A stretch of DNA of 35,098 bases from Clostridiaceae bacterium (GTDB lineage Bacteria; Bacillota; Clostridia; DSM-8532). The translations under genes and the position numbers were made by a program. Below the pieces are notes generated by a model. The model made no database searches, was not told where the DNA came from, and saw nothing but the letters and a program-made list of their open reading frames with translations. Below, one piece after another: positions 8,102 to 25,982 of the stretch. Position 1 is the stretch's first letter. Each line of letters begins with the position of its first letter. The stretch is from positions 1-35,098 of the forward strand of contig JAAYTU010000064.1 of the NCBI GenBank assembly GCA_012523705.1. Direction: 5' to 3'.

Positions 8102-8252
8102 CGGCTGGGACAAATATACATATACTAATAGTATAGACGAGAAGGCCTAATTATTCATAAGAATAAACGGGGGAACCAATTTACCGGGGCTTGTCCATTT
8201 TAAATGGTAGGGTTACCTCTTACCCGAGCCCGTCAGCTAACTCCGTAAGCCG
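8102..8252 (+). ncRNA. ydaO/yuaA-type cyclic di-AMP riboswitch
   Basis: The leader carries the conserved blocks of the ydaO family: GGGGGAACCA near 8170, GGGTTACCTCTTACCCGAGC near 8210-8229, then CCGTCAGCTAACTCCGTAAG ending at 8249. CGGCT (8102-8106) pairs with AGCCG (8248-8252) to close P1. The element binds c-di-AMP and is known as a genetic OFF switch for cell-wall hydrolases and osmolyte/K+ transporters. The AGGAGG of the hydrolase (8257-8262) lies five bases past P1. I see no separate terminator before the start codon, so control by access to the ribosome site is plausible. An open frame that runs back to an ATG at 8191 is only an accident of the aptamer sequence. Confidence 0.93.
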
Positions 8253-8268
8253 AAATAGGAGGAACATC

Positions 8269-9300
8269 ATGACAAGACCTAAACCAAAAAAGGTCAATAT
8301 ATCATTTGTGTTGTTGATATTACTTTTTACGCTTTCGCAAACAGCCTTTATACTCACTGCATCATTATCCTATGATAATGCGCAAGAGGCTGTGCAGGGT
8401 CAGAATATACAAAGTGAAGAATCTAACATATTATCAGTAGCATCCATATCATCTAATGTGGTGACACATATTACAGATAATGTTATGACATATTACGCCG
8501 AACCTGAAATGTATCTGAGTATGCCGAAGCTGGAAGCAGTAAATGCAGAGCTGACAGTTTACAATGATGTCGATACTGCTATTGCTGTTGTCGAGCCAGA
8601 GGAGCCTGCTCCTGCACCAATTAAATCAGTTGTTAAGCATGTTAATGCAAATAAGCTAAATGTCAGATCTGAGCCAACCTCATCAAGTGATCTGGTTACC
8701 TCTATAACAAGAGGGGACAAGGTCACATACTACGAAACAGTCGGTGAATGGGCAAGAATAATTACCTGGACTGATAAAAAGGGTTATGTATTGGCCAAAC
8801 ATCTGGTTGACAGTGCTAATAAGGTAGAACGAGTTGTTGTCCAGCAGCCTGCCACTCAGGAGCCAAAGGAAGATCCGGTTGTTGCGTCAAGATCTGAGCC
8901 TGAAGCAACTCCGATAAGTGCGGAGGGCCAAAACCTGGCCGATGAAATAGTTGCATATGCAAAAACCTTATTGGGGGTCCCATATAGATATGGTGGATAT
9001 TCCACTAAAGGGCTGGATTGCTCAGGCTTTACCAAGTATGTATTTGCTAAATTCGGGATTGACTTGCCTAGATCATCCTATTCATATGATGATGAAGGAA
9101 CAAAGGTTTCCAGATCAGATTTGCAAAAGGGAGATATACTGCTCTGGGACTCTAATAAAAATGGAACGATAGGGCATGTAGGTATTTACATTGGAGATGG
9201 GATGTTTATTCACGCTTCATCCTCCAAAGGAAAGGTGGTAACCAGGTCGGTTTCATCATATGGCGAGAAGTACATGGGAGCAAGAAGAGTATTAAAGTAG
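8269..9300 (+). CDS. SH3b-NlpC/P60 cell-wall hydrolase
   Basis: A 343-residue exported peptidoglycan hydrolase. Residues 1-8 are basic, and 10-35 form a signal peptide or membrane anchor. A low-complexity linker follows. Residues 123-181 are a bacterial SH3 domain (LNVRSEPTSSSDLVTSITRG, then GWARI-like and GYV.AKHLV ends) for wall binding. A second Pro/Glu linker leads to the NlpC/P60 catalytic domain at 222-343. Its catalytic Cys is C251 in GLDCSGFTKYVF; the His is H303 in GHVGIYIG, with H315 (MFIHASSS) as third polar residue. It would cut D-gamma-Glu-diamino-acid links in stem peptides. The ATG at 8269 is fixed by AGGAGG at 8257-8262; the frame upstream lies inside the riboswitch. c-di-AMP control ties wall remodelling to osmotic state or dormancy exit. 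Confidence 0.95.
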   Translation: MTRPKPKKVNISFVLLILLFTLSQTAFILTASLSYDNAQEAVQGQNIQSEESNILSVASISSNVVTHITDNVMTYYAEPEMYLSMPKLEAVNAELTVYNDVDTAIAVVEPEEPAPAPIKSVVKHVNANKLNVRSEPTSSSDLVTSITRGDKVTYYETVGEWARIITWTDKKGYVLAKHLVDSANKVERVVVQQPATQEPKEDPVVASRSEPEATPISAEGQNLADEIVAYAKTLLGVPYRYGGYSTKGLDCSGFTKYVFAKFGIDLPRSSYSYDDEGTKVSRSDLQKGDILLWDSNKNGTIGHVGIYIGDGMFIHASSSKGKVVTRSVSSYGEKYMGARRVLK

Positions 9301-19758: not shown

Positions 19759-19787
19759 TTGACGATATCATTAATTATGTCTATAAT
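19759..19787 (+). promoter_or_regulatory. Sigma-A promoter of the M-box-corA unit
   Basis: TTGACG (19759-19764) and TATAAT (19782-19787) have exactly 17 bases between them. The transcript would begin near 19794, about 20 bases before the M-box aptamer. Confidence 0.82.
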
Positions 19788-19810
19788 TAAGAAGTAGTTT
19801 AAGAAATGAA

Positions 19811-19970
19811 TATTCTCTATTAGGTGAGGCTCCTATGCGGAAAAACGCTGCTGCCCGGAAACGTCGAGAGACGCCAATGGGTGAACAGACATTGCCGAAT
19901 TAAGGTTTTGTTTAATGTAGCTGGTGAAGACCTAAGCCGCATAGTGCCAAAACTCAATGACGGGAGTGTT
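19811..19970 (+). ncRNA. M-box (ykoK) magnesium riboswitch
   Basis: The leader has the conserved M-box blocks in order: TTAGGTGAGGCTCCTATGCG near 19820-19839, ACGCTGCTGCCC at 19844-19856, GACGCCAATGGGTGAACAGA near 19873-19892, AATGTAGCTGG near 19913-19923, and GCCGCATAGTGCCAAAACTC near 19936-19955. It folds with bound Mg2+ and usually stops transcription or translation of Mg2+ transporter genes when Mg2+ is ample. The gene after it is a CorA-type transporter, as expected. An open frame across 19824-20054 is an accident of the aptamer. Confidence 0.95.
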
Positions 19971-19972
19971 TA

Positions 19973-20065
19973 TCATTATTTAATTAATAATGATGATGTA
20001 GTTCGCTCCGGCGGACTTTTTTATTACGAAATAATAAGGTCCTTTTATTGTTAAGCTGCCGGAGC
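19973..20065 (+). terminator. Expression platform of the M-box: nested hairpins and terminators
   Basis: Four structures follow the aptamer. An AT-rich stem (19973-19980 with 19986-19993) is first. Then comes a compact terminator, GTTCGC (20001-20006) with GCGGAC (20011-20016), followed by six T. A longer hairpin runs from 20013 to 20042 and is followed by TTTTATTG. Finally GCTCCGGC (20005-20012) can pair perfectly with GCCGGAGC (20058-20065). The last pairing and the compact terminator share bases and exclude one another, as in an attenuator. Which state Mg2+ favours cannot be read directly. Confidence 0.7.
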
Positions 20066-20193
20066 TTAATCAGCCACACTTCAAAGACTATAGAAGCTCA
20101 ATAGAGGATAGCATATCGCGCGGTTTCCCAACTGCTGATCTGCGTATTTTTTAGACCATTTCAAGAACTTTACATAGAAAGCTGGTGAGTTAC

Positions 20194-21150
20194 ATGATTG
20201 AGATTTACAAGACACAAGCGGGGACGGAGTTATTACATCGTCATGAATTGTTAAAACTGGATTCCATGGAAAAGGGTTGCTGGATTAATCTTGTGAGCCC
20301 TACTGAAGAGGAAATTGAGTTAGTGGTTAATAGTATTGATGTTAATCAGGATTTTATAAGGGATGCACTTGATGATGAAGAGAAGCCCCGTATTGATGTA
20401 GAAGATGGCCAGACCCTTATAATTATTGATATTCCGTATGTCTATGAGGATAACAAAACAATTAAGTTTGAGACATTACCTATGGGCTTCCTTACTGTAA
20501 GGGACGACTATATTATTACCATCAGCAGCAGACAGACTACGGTTCTGGAAAGGTTCAGAAATGCACAGATAAAGGATTTCTATACCTATAAGAAGACTAG
20601 ATTTATTCTGCAGATTTTGTATCATGTGTCAACTGAGTACTTGAAATATCTGAAGCATATTGATAAGAAGAGTGAGTTTATTGAAAAGTCACTGCATAAG
20701 TCTATGCGTAACAAGGAGCTTTATAAGCTGTTGGATTTGAGTAAGAGCTTAGTTTATTTCAATACTTCTTTAAAATCGAATGAAACAGTTTTAGAGAGGC
20801 TATTAACCGGGAAGTTTATTAAGCTGTATGAAGAAGATGCTGACCTTTTGGAGGATACAATTATTGAGAACAAGCAGGCCATTGAAATGGCGACTATATA
20901 CAGCTCAATCTTAAGTGGGACAATGGATGCCTTTGCCTCGATAATATCTAACAATCAGAATGAAGTAATGAAGTTCTTAGCGGCAATGACCATTGTTTTG
21001 TCCATCCCCAATATGGTTTATAGCTTCTTTGGTCAGAACTTTCCATTGCCATTGGGGGAGAATCCGCTCATGTGGCTTTATGTGCTTGCAGGCTCTGTAG
21101 TAATATGCTTAATAATGAGCTTTATTCTGTGGAAACGTGATATGTTTTAG
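20194..21150 (+). CDS. corA: CorA-family divalent cation transporter with GQN in place of GMN
   Basis: 318 residues, the normal CorA size: an N-terminal alpha/beta cytoplasmic domain, a long stalk helix from about 145 to 255, and two C-terminal spans (about 262-280 and 292-312) ending in the basic KRDMF tail. CorA forms a pentameric Mg2+ channel whose selectivity loop after the first span reads GMN. Here that loop is FGQNFPLPLGENP, so residue 281 is Gln (codon CAG) instead of Met. The frame can start at a GTG (20185) or the ATG at 20194; neither has a strong Shine-Dalgarno (GGTGAG is nearest the ATG). The M-box and a sigma-A promoter lie upstream, so expression should answer to Mg2+. Mg2+ is the likely ion; the altered motif leaves Co2+, Ni2+ or Zn2+ open. 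Confidence 0.9.
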   Translation: MIEIYKTQAGTELLHRHELLKLDSMEKGCWINLVSPTEEEIELVVNSIDVNQDFIRDALDDEEKPRIDVEDGQTLIIIDIPYVYEDNKTIKFETLPMGFLTVRDDYIITISSRQTTVLERFRNAQIKDFYTYKKTRFILQILYHVSTEYLKYLKHIDKKSEFIEKSLHKSMRNKELYKLLDLSKSLVYFNTSLKSNETVLERLLTGKFIKLYEEDADLLEDTIIENKQAIEMATIYSSILSGTMDAFASIISNNQNEVMKFLAAMTIVLSIPNMVYSFFGQNFPLPLGENPLMWLYVLAGSVVICLIMSFILWKRDMF

Positions 21151-21255: not shown

Positions 21256-21332
21256 GCGCCCATAGCTCAACTGGATAGAGCGTCTGGCTACGGACCAGAA
21301 GGTTGTGGATTCGATCTCTGCTGGGCGCGCCA
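21256..21332 (+). tRNA. tRNA-Arg (anticodon ACG)
   Basis: A 77-base cloverleaf with the CCA end encoded. Acceptor arms GCGCCCA and TGGGCGC pair fully; the D arm is GCTC/GAGC; the anticodon stem TCTGG/CCAGA holds the loop CTACGGA with anticodon ACG at the usual places; the T loop is TTCGATC. The T stem contains G-T pairs. The A of ACG would normally be edited to inosine by TadA to read CGU, CGC and CGA. A terminator follows at once, so it is a single-gene unit. Confidence 0.95.
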
Positions 21333-21557: not shown

Positions 21558-22745
21558 ATGATTATGAGCAGATTAAAAAAACAGAGCTCTTTTAAGAAAC
21601 TAGCCTTAGTCACATCCTTATTACTGATTCTCTCTTTTTTAGCTACAGCATGTAGTTCTTCGCATGATCAAAATGCAAATACTGGGGCCGCTGCTCCAAA
21701 TTACGATTATAGTCCGAAGGAGCAAAGCTGGGATTCGCCGCCAGAAGCTCAAGATCCCGGATCAGGTCTGGGGGAAGGAGGCTATGGTGATTCGGGCAGT
21801 CAGGTTGGCGCGGGCGCGAAAGATGTAATGAGCCAGCGAAAAATCATTATGGATGGGGAAGTATCCTTAGAAACAACGTATTTTGATGACTCAATTGCAG
21901 CAATGGATCAGCTGATAAATGATTTTGGGGGTTTTGCAGAGGTCAGAAATGTAGTAGGAAAGAGTCAATACTCTACCAACAGAAGAAGGGCTACATATAT
22001 TATTCGTGTTCCTGCAGAAAGGTATGAACAGGCCCTGAAGAGCATGGGGAATATCGGAACTGTATTAGAATCTGACTCAAAGGGAACAGATATCACCGAC
22101 ACATATTATGATACAGAGGCAAGAATCAAGGCTTTAAAGATTCAGGAGGAAACACTTCTGGATATCTTGGCTAAATCAGTAAATCTTGATGATGTTATTA
22201 CCTTAGAAAGCCGTATTTCACAAGTTCGCTATGAGATTGAAAGCCTGGAGAATACTATAAGAAATTATGATCGTCTGGTGGCCTTTAGCAGAATAACAGT
22301 ATATATTCAGGAGGTAACTGACAGAACCGAAACCAAGCCGACACCTGAAACATTGGGTGAAAGAGTGTCAAGATCATTCAACGAAGCCCTGGAGAACTTC
22401 AAAATAGGTTGCGAAGACTTTATAGTATGGTTAGCCGGTGCATGGATTGGGCTTCTTATCTGGATAATAATAATTGTTGTCATACTTCGTATTTTTAAAT
22501 CTATTAAGAGAAGGAAGAAAAACAAAGGGGTGCAAGCTGTTGCAGCCGAAAAGCATCGGGCCGGCACAAAGTTCTTTTCGAAAAAAACAAAGGAACAGCT
22601 AGTAGAGGACAAGGTAAGCGACAAATTTTCAGACAAATCTTCCGAAATACCTTCCGGTGAAAAGACAAGCGAAAAGTCTGAGAAGGCAAATATAGAAGCA
22701 ATGGAAAAGCCGGATGATAAAAAGGAAGATAAACCCCAAAAATAA
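21558..22745 (+). CDS. DUF4349 domain lipoprotein
   Basis: 395 residues. A lipoprotein signal peptide ends in FLATAC, giving a lipidated Cys at about residue 32, followed by a Gly/Ser/Pro-rich linker. The DUF4349 domain (about 95-260) is shown by KIIMDGEVSLETT, GTDITDTYYDTEARI, a coiled-coil stretch with LLDILAKSVNLDDVITLESR, and VAFSRITVYIQEVT at its end. A single span (WLAGAWIGLLIWIIIIVVIL, about 292-313) is followed by about 80 residues of highly charged Lys/Glu/Asp/Ser repeats in the cytoplasm. Lipid anchor and span together place the domain outside the cell. The function of DUF4349 is not established. GTGAGG lies 8-9 bases before the ATG. Confidence 0.9.
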   Translation: MIMSRLKKQSSFKKLALVTSLLLILSFLATACSSSHDQNANTGAAAPNYDYSPKEQSWDSPPEAQDPGSGLGEGGYGDSGSQVGAGAKDVMSQRKIIMDGEVSLETTYFDDSIAAMDQLINDFGGFAEVRNVVGKSQYSTNRRRATYIIRVPAERYEQALKSMGNIGTVLESDSKGTDITDTYYDTEARIKALKIQEETLLDILAKSVNLDDVITLESRISQVRYEIESLENTIRNYDRLVAFSRITVYIQEVTDRTETKPTPETLGERVSRSFNEALENFKIGCEDFIVWLAGAWIGLLIWIIIIVVILRIFKSIKRRKKNKGVQAVAAEKHRAGTKFFSKKTKEQLVEDKVSDKFSDKSSEIPSGEKTSEKSEKANIEAMEKPDDKKEDKPQK

Positions 22746-22865: not shown

Positions 22866-25800
22866 ATGCGGCTGTTTGGGAGGGAGATTAATCGCCCGGG
22901 AAGGTATATAATAGCCATAGTGTTGATAGTTTTAGCAAGCACAATTGTCATTATTTTCACAAACAACTATTTAAACAGGATGACAGAAGAGTCATTAGTG
23001 GAAATATCAAAACAGGGTGCTAAAACAGTCGAGAACAAAATTGCCTGGTCATTTGACAAGTTGGAGGCTATTTCACGCCTAAAAACCATGAGAGGATCTA
23101 CTGATATTGATGATAAACTCCTGTTATTAAAAGATATTGATGAATGGGACGATACATATGATTTTGGGTTTATAGATACTTCCGGACAATTTCATATAGC
23201 CTATGGAGATTCCTATAATGTAAAAAATGAATATTTCTTTTCACGTGCAATGGCTGGAGAAAAAACCATGGAAACTGTTGAAGTTAAACAGTTTGGTGAT
23301 TATCCCGCTATTGCATTTTCTGTGCCTGTATATGACTTTGATGGTACAAGTATCATTGGCGTCGTTTGTATAGTGTATTCGGCGGAACAGTTTTGCCAAT
23401 TGGTTGAAGATACAGCCTTCGGAGATGAAGGCATCGGGTGTCTCGTTGATTATTCAGGCCTTATTATAGCTCATCCGGATAGAAGTATAGTAAAAGAAAA
23501 GAAGGATTGGCTTCTGGAGACAATTAATAATCCTGAATTGGATGAGCTCTCGGATCTTGGGCAAAGGATGATACGAGGGGAAATAGGTGCTGGAAAATTT
23601 ATTATTAATGGGAACCGTAAAATTATGGGCTTTAGCCCCATAAACGATACTAAATGGTCATTTCTTGCTATATCACCGGCTAACGATTCTTTTAACGATA
23701 TAACTCCTATGCTTGCACTTGTATCAGTTATTATGGGTCTGTTTCTCGTAGCATATATACGAGTAAATTATTATTTTACATCTCTTAATCAAAAAATCCA
23801 AAAGGAGGAGAGATCCCTTAAAACAGCTGTTGAAACAGGTAAGCTGATAGTCATTTCCTTCCTTAGTGACGGAACAATTATAGAATTCAACACAAATGCC
23901 GAGGAATCCCTCGGATATTTACAAGAGGATGTAGTTAAAGTCTTCCGAATATTTGATTTTCTTAATTTCTATGAACAAGATAAGCTAAGAAAAATCATGG
24001 ATGAATGCTTAAAGAATGAGAATGTAGAAATTGAAAACTCTGAAATCAGTCTTTCATGTAGCACAGGCGAAACAGAGCATTTGCTCTATAATTTGAATCT
24101 GTTGAACAGACAATCGGCTACCCCGGTTTTTGAGTTGATTGGATTTGGTATTACAGATAGAGTTAATTATGAAATTCAACTGATTGAAAAGCATGAAGAA
24201 CTATCGGCTGTTTATGAACAGCTGGCAGCCTCGGAACAGGAATTAAAAAATCAGCTTGATGAGCTCATTGAACAAAGGCAAAAGCTTCTCGAAAAGGATC
24301 AAAGATATAATCTTGTTGTTGAGGCATCAAATATTGGTATTTGGGAGTGGGATGTGGAAAGCGATACATATTTCTACTCAGATAAGTGGTATGAGATTTT
24401 TGAAATAGATGAGTCTGAAATAGAGGGCAGCATACATAAAAAAAGAGGTTTTCAGGAAGAAATCATTTTTGAAGAGGATCTGGATAATTTCGTTGAAGCA
24501 TACCTCAATCACTTAAAGAACAAGACTGATTTCTATGAATGTGAGTACAGAATCAAAACCCCCAAGGGCAATGTTAAGTGGATTCATACTGTTGGTAAGG
24601 CTTTGTTTGATGATAATGGCAATCCATTAATAATGGCAGGGTCAAATACAGACATCACTTCTAAGAAAGAGTCAGAGAAAAAAATACATAAGCTCGCGTA
24701 CTATGACAGCCTCACTGGCCTTGCAAACAGAAGCAGTTTCAATGTATGCTTTGATGAGCTTGTTGCACAAGACACCCGGAATATCGCTATTGCTATTATT
24801 GACATCTATAATTTTAAGTTAATAAATGATTCCTATGGCCATGATGTGGGGGATCTGCTTTTAATAGAGGTGGCTAAACGCTTGCAGAACAAGCAGACCG
24901 ACAGAATGCATCTGTGCAGAATCGGCGGTGACGATTATGCAATAATGCTATATGATTATTCCGATGTAGAAGAGCTTGGGAATATAGTAGAAGAAATTAT
25001 AGACTATTTGGATGTCACTATAAAAATTGATATTTACGAAGTCAATTTATCTGTTAATGCGGGTATAGCTATGTATCCCAAGGATGGAAAGAACTTCGAG
25101 GATTTATTGAAAAATGCCGATACCGCTAAGTACAGAGCCTATGAGCAAAGATCAAAATATGTATATTTTGATGCAAAGATGAATGACGTTCTTGTTGAAA
25201 AGCTAAGCCTCATGAACAGCCTTAAGGTGGCATTGGATAACGATGAATTTATCATCTACTATCAGCCTCAATATAGCTTGCCTGACAGAAGAATTATGGG
25301 TTTCGAGGCCTTGATAAGATGGAATAGTCCCGTGCTTGGAATGGTATCCCCGGGGAGATTTATACCTATAGCAGAGGAATCGGGTGCCATTATTCCTCTT
25401 GGATCTTGGATATTGGAGGAATCCATTAAATTCATTAAAAGAATACATGAGCTTGGACATGACGATTTAATCATATCTGTTAATACCTCTGTAATTCAGT
25501 TTACTCAGGAGAAATTCGCACAGGAGGTAATGCAGTTGCTGGATAAATATGATCTATCCCCTGAAATGCTTGAGCTGGAAATTACGGAATCAATTATGAT
25601 GGATAATGTTGAAACTGTAATGAACAACCTGGCAACAGTAGAGGAGGCTGGAATCTCCCTAGCCTTGGATGACTTCGGAACAGGATACTCATCGTTGAAC
25701 TACCTGACAAAACTGCCCATCAAGACCTTAAAAATTGACAAGAGCTTTATAGATACAATTGGTAGTGACACAGAAAAGGATATACTTCTGGATAATATTA

Positions 25801-25982
25801 TAGATATTGGTCATGGCCTCGGCCTCAGCATTGTGGCTGAGGGAGTTGAGACAGGGAATCAGTACATGTACCTAGAAAAAATGGATTGCGAAAGGGTTCA
25901 GGGATACTATTTCAGCAGGCCAGTTCCCGAGGAGCAGATAATTGATATGTTAGAGGAGCAGACAAGTAAATTACATAAATAA
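22866..25982 (+). CDS. dCache-PAS-PAS-GGDEF-EAL protein, probable c-di-GMP phosphodiesterase
   Basis: 1038 residues. Span 1 (about 14-35) and span 2 (about 281-299) flank a double-Cache-like sensor (36-280). A PAS-like domain (about 315-430), a coiled coil (435-475) and a second PAS with PAC (480-600, KWIHTVGKALFDDNGNP) follow. GGDEF spans 605-770 and EAL 780-1035. The GGDEF motif reads GGDDY (687-691), the usual DxD is DIYNFK (646-651), and no RxxD I-site precedes it, so cyclase activity is doubtful. The EAL domain keeps EAL (814-816), EITES (905-909), DDFGTGYSS (935-943) and AEGVET (991-996), as in active enzymes that hydrolyse c-di-GMP to pGpG. AGGGGGA lies before the ATG. It stands alone; the sensed ligand is unknown. 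Confidence 0.93.
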   Translation: MRLFGREINRPGRYIIAIVLIVLASTIVIIFTNNYLNRMTEESLVEISKQGAKTVENKIAWSFDKLEAISRLKTMRGSTDIDDKLLLLKDIDEWDDTYDFGFIDTSGQFHIAYGDSYNVKNEYFFSRAMAGEKTMETVEVKQFGDYPAIAFSVPVYDFDGTSIIGVVCIVYSAEQFCQLVEDTAFGDEGIGCLVDYSGLIIAHPDRSIVKEKKDWLLETINNPELDELSDLGQRMIRGEIGAGKFIINGNRKIMGFSPINDTKWSFLAISPANDSFNDITPMLALVSVIMGLFLVAYIRVNYYFTSLNQKIQKEERSLKTAVETGKLIVISFLSDGTIIEFNTNAEESLGYLQEDVVKVFRIFDFLNFYEQDKLRKIMDECLKNENVEIENSEISLSCSTGETEHLLYNLNLLNRQSATPVFELIGFGITDRVNYEIQLIEKHEELSAVYEQLAASEQELKNQLDELIEQRQKLLEKDQRYNLVVEASNIGIWEWDVESDTYFYSDKWYEIFEIDESEIEGSIHKKRGFQEEIIFEEDLDNFVEAYLNHLKNKTDFYECEYRIKTPKGNVKWIHTVGKALFDDNGNPLIMAGSNTDITSKKESEKKIHKLAYYDSLTGLANRSSFNVCFDELVAQDTRNIAIAIIDIYNFKLINDSYGHDVGDLLLIEVAKRLQNKQTDRMHLCRIGGDDYAIMLYDYSDVEELGNIVEEIIDYLDVTIKIDIYEVNLSVNAGIAMYPKDGKNFEDLLKNADTAKYRAYEQRSKYVYFDAKMNDVLVEKLSLMNSLKVALDNDEFIIYYQPQYSLPDRRIMGFEALIRWNSPVLGMVSPGRFIPIAEESGAIIPLGSWILEESIKFIKRIHELGHDDLIISVNTSVIQFTQEKFAQEVMQLLDKYDLSPEMLELEITESIMMDNVETVMNNLATVEEAGISLALDDFGTGYSSLNYLTKLPIKTLKIDKSFIDTIGSDTEKDILLDNIIDIGHGLGLSIVAEGVETGNQYMYLEKMDCERVQGYYFSRPVPEEQIIDMLEEQTSKLHK

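Follow-up and report, generated by a model that had tools for sequence, protein, structure and literature searches.

The corA gene and its upstream region

The window, by which we mean the whole analysed stretch of 35,098 nucleotides, contains a corA gene that lies behind a Mg2+ riboswitch and is followed by a tRNA gene. The features of this locus are:

19759–19787, + strand: promoter-like site TTGACG-17-TATAAT, 11 of 12 consensus matches
19809–19972, + strand: M-box (Mg2+ riboswitch) aptamer, full length (RF00380, 151.5 bits, model positions 1–169 of 169)
20000–20024, + strand: intrinsic terminator with a 7-pair stem (20000–20017) followed by a T run, from the terminator-like site scan and folding
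20184–20189, + strand: ribosome-binding-like GGTGAG, 4 nt ahead of the ATG, read from the sequence
20194–21150, + strand: corA, 318 aa, 2-TM-GxN channel subunit with GQN, from the ORF, Pfam, AF2, and PDB fold matches
20956–20958, + strand: codon 255, Gln; T. maritima position 287 by ungapped count; Leu in the nearest GMN relatives
20980–20982, + strand: codon 263, Ala; T. maritima Thr295 by ungapped count; M. jannaschii Thr261 of TMVTT
21010–21012, + strand: codon 273, Asn; T. maritima Thr305 by ungapped count from the signature
21031–21039, + strand: GQN signature, residues 280–282 (GGT CAG AAC)
21256–21332, + strand: tRNA-Arg (ACG), 3' of corA, adjoining corA genes of either signature (GQN or GMN) in the family

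The corA reading frame extends from the ATG at 20194 to the stop codon at 21148–21150. Its product matches the Pfam CorA profile PF01544 over residues 27–312 with 167.8 bits (curated cut-off 27). In the single-chain AF2 model (pLDDT 84.4, about 66 in the loop), helices at residues 213–280 and 293–314 form a long stalk helix leading into TM1, a short outer loop, and a C-terminal TM2, with the signature at residues 280–282. The predicted fold is that of CorA: the top PDB fold match is the M. jannaschii protein (MjCorA, 4ev6, E 2.7e-17), and all 50 PDB fold matches listed for the model are CorA.

The end of TM1 reads YSFFGQNF, and GQN thus stands in place of the strict GMN signature. The middle residue, Gln281, is encoded by CAG at 21034–21036, two bases away from ATG, exactly as claimed in the preliminary description of this DNA. 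GMN has been called universally conserved (PMC3629940), and a review allows only Met, Val, or Ile in the middle of GxN (PMC9276622); the window CorA keeps the Gly and Asn, but its Gln lies outside this set. With the NCBIfam equivalog model TIGR00383 (corA), the protein scored 103.6 bits and thus below the cut-off of 200.75. As three GMN relatives scored equally low (102–117 bits), this shortfall marks the branch and not the GQN. The ZntB model NF007092 gave no match to the window CorA at E 0.001, and no GQN-specific family was found in PDB or NCBIfam.

The position of corA behind an M-box, which had also been described before, was borne out by the full-length aptamer, whose score far exceeds the RF00380 gathering score of 44 bits. 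Promoter-like site, M-box, and terminator before corA represent the usual M-box layout. The number of promoter-like sites in the upstream stretch was not above the shuffle mean, and the site at 19759–19787 is therefore to be read as a consensus match only. Terminator-like sites were more frequent than in shuffled sequences (5 versus 0.9), and the region 19955–20025 folded with a z-score of -3.05; the terminator at 20000–20024 is likely the expression platform of the M-box. In a search of the contigs of the window's genome, we found one M-box and one CorA, both in the window, and one MgtE on another contig.

Distribution and origins of GQN

We considered whether GQN is private to the window's genome, which was rejected, as it was found in many other genomes. 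Among 33 searched genomes of the window's order, 24 have this CorA, with GQN in 17 and GMN in 7. The GQN genomes belong to the genera g1 (11), g7 (5), and g3 (1), the GMN genomes to g2, g4, g5, and another family. Within the window's family, GQN occurs in the majority of the genomes of two genera, and it is a stable inherited lineage trait; an alignment with relatives had been suggested before to see whether this is the case. The close relatives with names are uncultured Clostridiaceae metagenome-assembled genomes; the scan that found them yielded 80 loci, 6 with GQN (L032–L037) and 74 with GMN. As the relatives that carry names are metagenome-assembled genomes, an error of sequencing or assembly at the codon could have been suspected, but 52 distinct GQN proteins (48 with CAG, 4 with CAA) from many separate assemblies and several families refute this, and such an error can practically be dismissed. 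The unusual codon is real.

The corA frame is open in all 17 GQN genomes of the order, and two close pairs indicated purifying selection (dN 0.042 with dS 0.791, and dN 0.016 with dS 0.652), the remaining pairs being mostly too diverged for dS. The tRNA-Arg (ACG) gene adjoins the GQN corA genes L018, L020, and L029 as well as the GMN corA genes L010, L011, L016, L024, and L131. This shared neighbor indicates that GQN and GMN genes are orthologous and occupy a single locus, so that GMN most likely changed to GQN in place. The GMN orthologues of the same family (L010, L011, L014, L016, L024, and L131) are 58–62% identical to the window CorA; five of the six are found at the tRNA-Arg locus, the flank of L014 being without the tRNA, and three have an M-box. 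They carry Leu255, Thr263, and Thr273, whereas the window CorA has Gln, Ala, and Asn at these positions.

A second group of GQN proteins was recognized beyond the order. The DNA pattern MK..P..GQN matched in 27 of 391 genomes of the class, of which 21 contained a GQN CorA (13 in the own family, 6 in f43, 2 in f85) and 6 were chance matches; without the proline, the pattern yielded no additional CorA in the same 391 genomes. In 398 genomes of the phylum, it matched the window and two chance loci without a GQN CorA, and no GQN CorA was found among the 383 of them that belong to other classes. Both patterns require Met-Lys in TM1, and the survey thus covers CorA proteins with Met-Lys in the phylum of the window. 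E. coli-type CorA is not known to have Met-Lys in TM1. In the order of one f43 genome, 39 of 118 genomes have a close CorA (>340 bits), which carries GQN in 36 (f43, f85, and f217) and GMN in 3 (G811, G827, and G817). The members read of family f25 of the same order have GMN.

Altogether, we obtained 166 distinct CorA ORFs, a set that is enriched for GQN by the mode of gathering and comprises 113 GMN, 52 GQN, and 1 SMN. Outside the two GQN groups, all sampled M. jannaschii-like relatives have GMN, and at residue 281, where a two-base change is needed, no intermediate between Met and Gln codons was seen. One GMN relative, L112, is carried by a viral contig.

For phylogenetic trees, 18 of the 166 ORFs were left out as too distant or too short, and the removal of near-duplicates at 85% resulted in 108 rows, or 107 after L224 with its very long branch had been left out. 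A second, more careful tree of 54 rows was thinned at 82% and had hand-picked GMN outgroups; the four trait columns were excluded from all trees. In the 54-row tree, the GQN clade of the own family (98/99) is nested in a clade of the own order that includes GMN (100/97), and the GQN rows of f43, f85, and f217 (91/80) are separate from it. This tree implies two changes from GMN to GQN, and a single change was obtained in 0 of 200 bootstrap trees. GQN alone as one clade was rejected on both trees.

The f85 proteins L198, L199, and L201, which are GMN CorA with Ala263, stand beside the f85 GQN rows and may have either kept the ancestral state or reverted from GQN. Enforcing GQN and these three as one clade was rejected with the 54-row tree (p 0.019). 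With the 107-row quick tree, one clade made up of GQN, L198, and L199 could not be rejected (p 0.55); the enforced tree even scored slightly better. As one tree rejects one origin and the other does not, two origins of GQN appear likely but not certain.

Probable M-box control and Mg2+ transporter families

Published data show that the M-box marks true Mg2+ transporters, even those of an unexpected family such as NrmT (PMC4072509). Among 61 relatives, we found 24 M-boxes, of which 14 precede a GQN corA, 3 a GMN corA, and 5 mgtE, and 2 are at contig ends. All 22 placeable M-boxes thus precede CorA or MgtE, in agreement with the published pattern (PMC4072509). Of the order's 17 GQN genomes, 15 have an M-box upstream of the GQN corA, which is of full length in 14 and cut by a contig end in G008; the M-box of G021 was confirmed in a second look. 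The two genomes without a match are G030, in which the upstream DNA is cut by a contig end, and G013, in which none was found.

No CorA besides the GQN protein was found in 15 of these 17 genomes, whereas G008 and G021 have a second CorA with GMN. MgtE was not found in 14 of the 17, and in 12 the GQN protein is the sole CorA/MgtE. MgtA exceeded its curated cut-off in 1 of 32 genomes of the family (G015, which is not a GQN genome) and in none of the 17. A designation as the only importer would cover CorA, MgtE, and MgtA, which are the families searched for. As the genome of the window has an MgtE, the GQN channel is not the sole candidate importer there. In G010 (C62:26845-28486), which belongs to the same genus and is without a CorA match, the M-box precedes mgtE, and different importers of this genus thus seem to have come under M-box control in turn.

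In the second group, an M-box was detected at 4 of 36 GQN loci (L163, L189, L190, and L192), all of genus g210, and no MgtE match was found in the genomes of these four. The examined flanks of the other 32 loci contained no M-box, and MgtE is present in most f43 genomes of the group.

These data also bear on the idea of a degenerating or non-transporting CorA. Single GMN mutants have been reported to lose transport (PMC4613352), which would fit such a decay, but purifying selection is strong, all 17 frames are open, the M-box is retained, and 12 GQN genomes have neither a second CorA nor MgtE, which makes a decaying channel very unlikely.

The pore and the probable function of GQN channels

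M. jannaschii CorA (PDB 4EV6 and 4CY4), which is the best fold match, is also the best PDB sequence match of the window CorA (97.5 bits). Both proteins have the TM1 proline at the same place, and neither has MPEL after the signature. They differ in that M. jannaschii CorA has GMN and the pore sequence TMVTT, whereas the window CorA has GQN and AAMTI, with residue 263 aligning to the first Thr (261) of TMVTT. T. maritima CorA shares the fold and has GMN, Thr295, and Thr305 where the window CorA has GQN, Ala, and Asn. We further take T. maritima Asn288, Met291, and Leu294 to correspond to Asn256, Met259, and Leu262 of the window CorA.

Natural departures from GMN have been described in other 2-TM-GxN proteins. 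The zinc transporter ZntB, which is less than 20% identical to CorA, also has a changed middle residue, but this is Val (PMC5670123), and rice has OsMRS2-4 and OsMRS2-5 with AMN and OsMRS2-8 with GIN (PMC4613352). The rice variants are plant paralogues that exist beside GMN members, whereas the GQN gene stands alone as CorA in nearly all GQN genomes of the order. In the open-access literature searched, we found neither a description of GQN as a natural CorA form nor a common, characterized GQN subfamily, which the preliminary description had named as a finding that would speak against its view. The CorA family, the M-box, and their pairing are already known (PMC4072509), and it is the GQN variant that is new. 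Our analysis goes beyond the earlier description in that GQN occurs in further families, probably has two origins, and is accompanied by differences at other places of the pore helix.

At these places, Asn256 and Thr266 are invariant across all 107 tree rows, and residue 273 is Thr, Asn, or Asp in GQN CorA. In the same rows, Asp273 was found in 8 of 32 with GQN and in 0 of 75 with GMN, one of which (L208) has Glu. Within f43, the GQN proteins L157–L160, L162, L171, L173, L178, L180, and L183–L186 have Asp273, often together with GQNC, and this Asp possibly forms a charged ring inside the pore. An initial comparison of 15 GQN with 11 GMN rows had indicated four fully coupled pore substitutions, which was weakened by wider sampling: Gln255 and Asn273 also occur with GMN, and GQN also occurs without them (L134 and L136). 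Of the coupled positions, only Ala263 stays with GQN, being present in 51 of 52 GQN proteins (the exception, L183, has Thr) versus 28 of 113 GMN proteins. As the independent-pairs test comprised only two or three pairs, which put significance out of reach, this association has no statistical weight.

As it was in principle possible that the changed filter and the changed polar rings below it altered the ion choice, we considered a channel that mainly carries another divalent ion. In ZntB, the exchange of Met for Val goes along with a wider filter (about 4.5 versus 3.5–4.0 A) and the binding of Zn2+ rather than Mg2+ (PMC5670123). In T. maritima CorA, Thr295 and Thr305 affect Co2+ selection, as Co2+ transport is stopped by T305S and also by T299S, and T295S lowers the Co2+ preference (PMC3629940), and the aligned places in GQN proteins have Ala with the single exception and Thr, Asn, or Asp, respectively. 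However, M-box control in two lineages, the lack of MgtE matches in most GQN genomes of the order, and the interchange of CorA and MgtE behind the M-box in one genus all argue against such a change, which we regard as improbable.

Our favored explanation, of which we are fairly confident, is that the protein belongs to the M. jannaschii-like branch and works as a CorA-type Mg2+ channel, its GMN having been replaced by a still functional GQN. The earlier suggestion of a working Mg2+ transporter therefore holds as the best reading of the genomic context, with transport itself being inferred. The reported loss of Mg2+ transport upon single substitutions in GMN (PMC4613352) counts against it and, as laboratory swaps at this residue reportedly break the channel, makes GQN as a stable trait surprising.

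In mechanistic terms, low Mg2+ would cause the M-box to let transcription pass the terminator, and the channel, presumably a pentamer, would be made. Structures of CorA show that the Mg2+ ligands in GMN are the Gly carbonyl and the side chain of Asn (PMC4579555, PMC3629940), and an ion between these groups has also been described for the CorA family in PMC10404273. The ring of Gly carbonyls and the ring of Asn side chains that hold the hydrated Mg2+ at the mouth would thus be kept in GQN channels. Gln, which is about as long as Met and likewise unbranched, would replace Met between them. The loop Met numbered Met311, which we take to be that of the GMN motif, contributes to the loop's hydrophobic interior (PMC3629940), and Gln281 may have taken over this packing place. 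Its amide group may also point to the mouth and influence ion selection. The TMVTT region of the M. jannaschii CorA structure contains hydrated Mg2+ (PMC4579555), and further changes of the pore helix, namely Ala for Thr263 and, in the window's family, Gln for Leu255 and Asn for Thr273, may help to tolerate the Gln.

It is also quite possible, if somewhat short of an even chance, that GQN and GMN channels of this branch do not differ at all in how they carry Mg2+, the change having arisen by neutral drift without special meaning. This would be the ordinary half of our favored explanation and is compatible with it. The ion-contacting Gly and Asn are kept in all 52 GQN proteins, and GMN and GQN orthologues have locus and M-box in common, as expected for such drift. 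On the other hand, GMN prevails in the collected ORFs and in all sampled M. jannaschii-like relatives outside the two groups, the two-base change has no visible intermediate, and Ala263 goes with GQN, albeit with the few independent events mentioned above.

A further-reaching interpretation, which we put forward only tentatively and would not bet on, is that GQN is a polar second CorA filter that arose twice from GMN and is the main Mg2+ entry of whole lineages. Together with the changed lower rings (Ala at the Thr295 place and Asn or Asp at the Thr305 place), it would then have an ion order or affinity unlike that of every studied CorA. In any case, natural GQN channels that lie behind a Mg2+ riboswitch in genomes lacking MgtE and any further CorA offer a ready test of the role of the middle residue and of which pore changes make Gln tolerable, and the GMN orthologues at the same locus serve as natural controls.

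The window contains further features of interest:

8134–8266, + strand: c-di-AMP riboswitch (RF00379, 83.4 bits), directly preceding the ORF of an NlpC/P60 SH3-domain hydrolase (8191–9300)
21558–22745, + strand: DUF4349 protein (184.5 bits), downstream of corA
22866–25982, + strand: dCache-PAS-GGDEF-EAL protein, downstream of corA

DUF4349 is also found in the corA flanks of L018, L020, and L033, two of which (L018 and L033) represent one locus.
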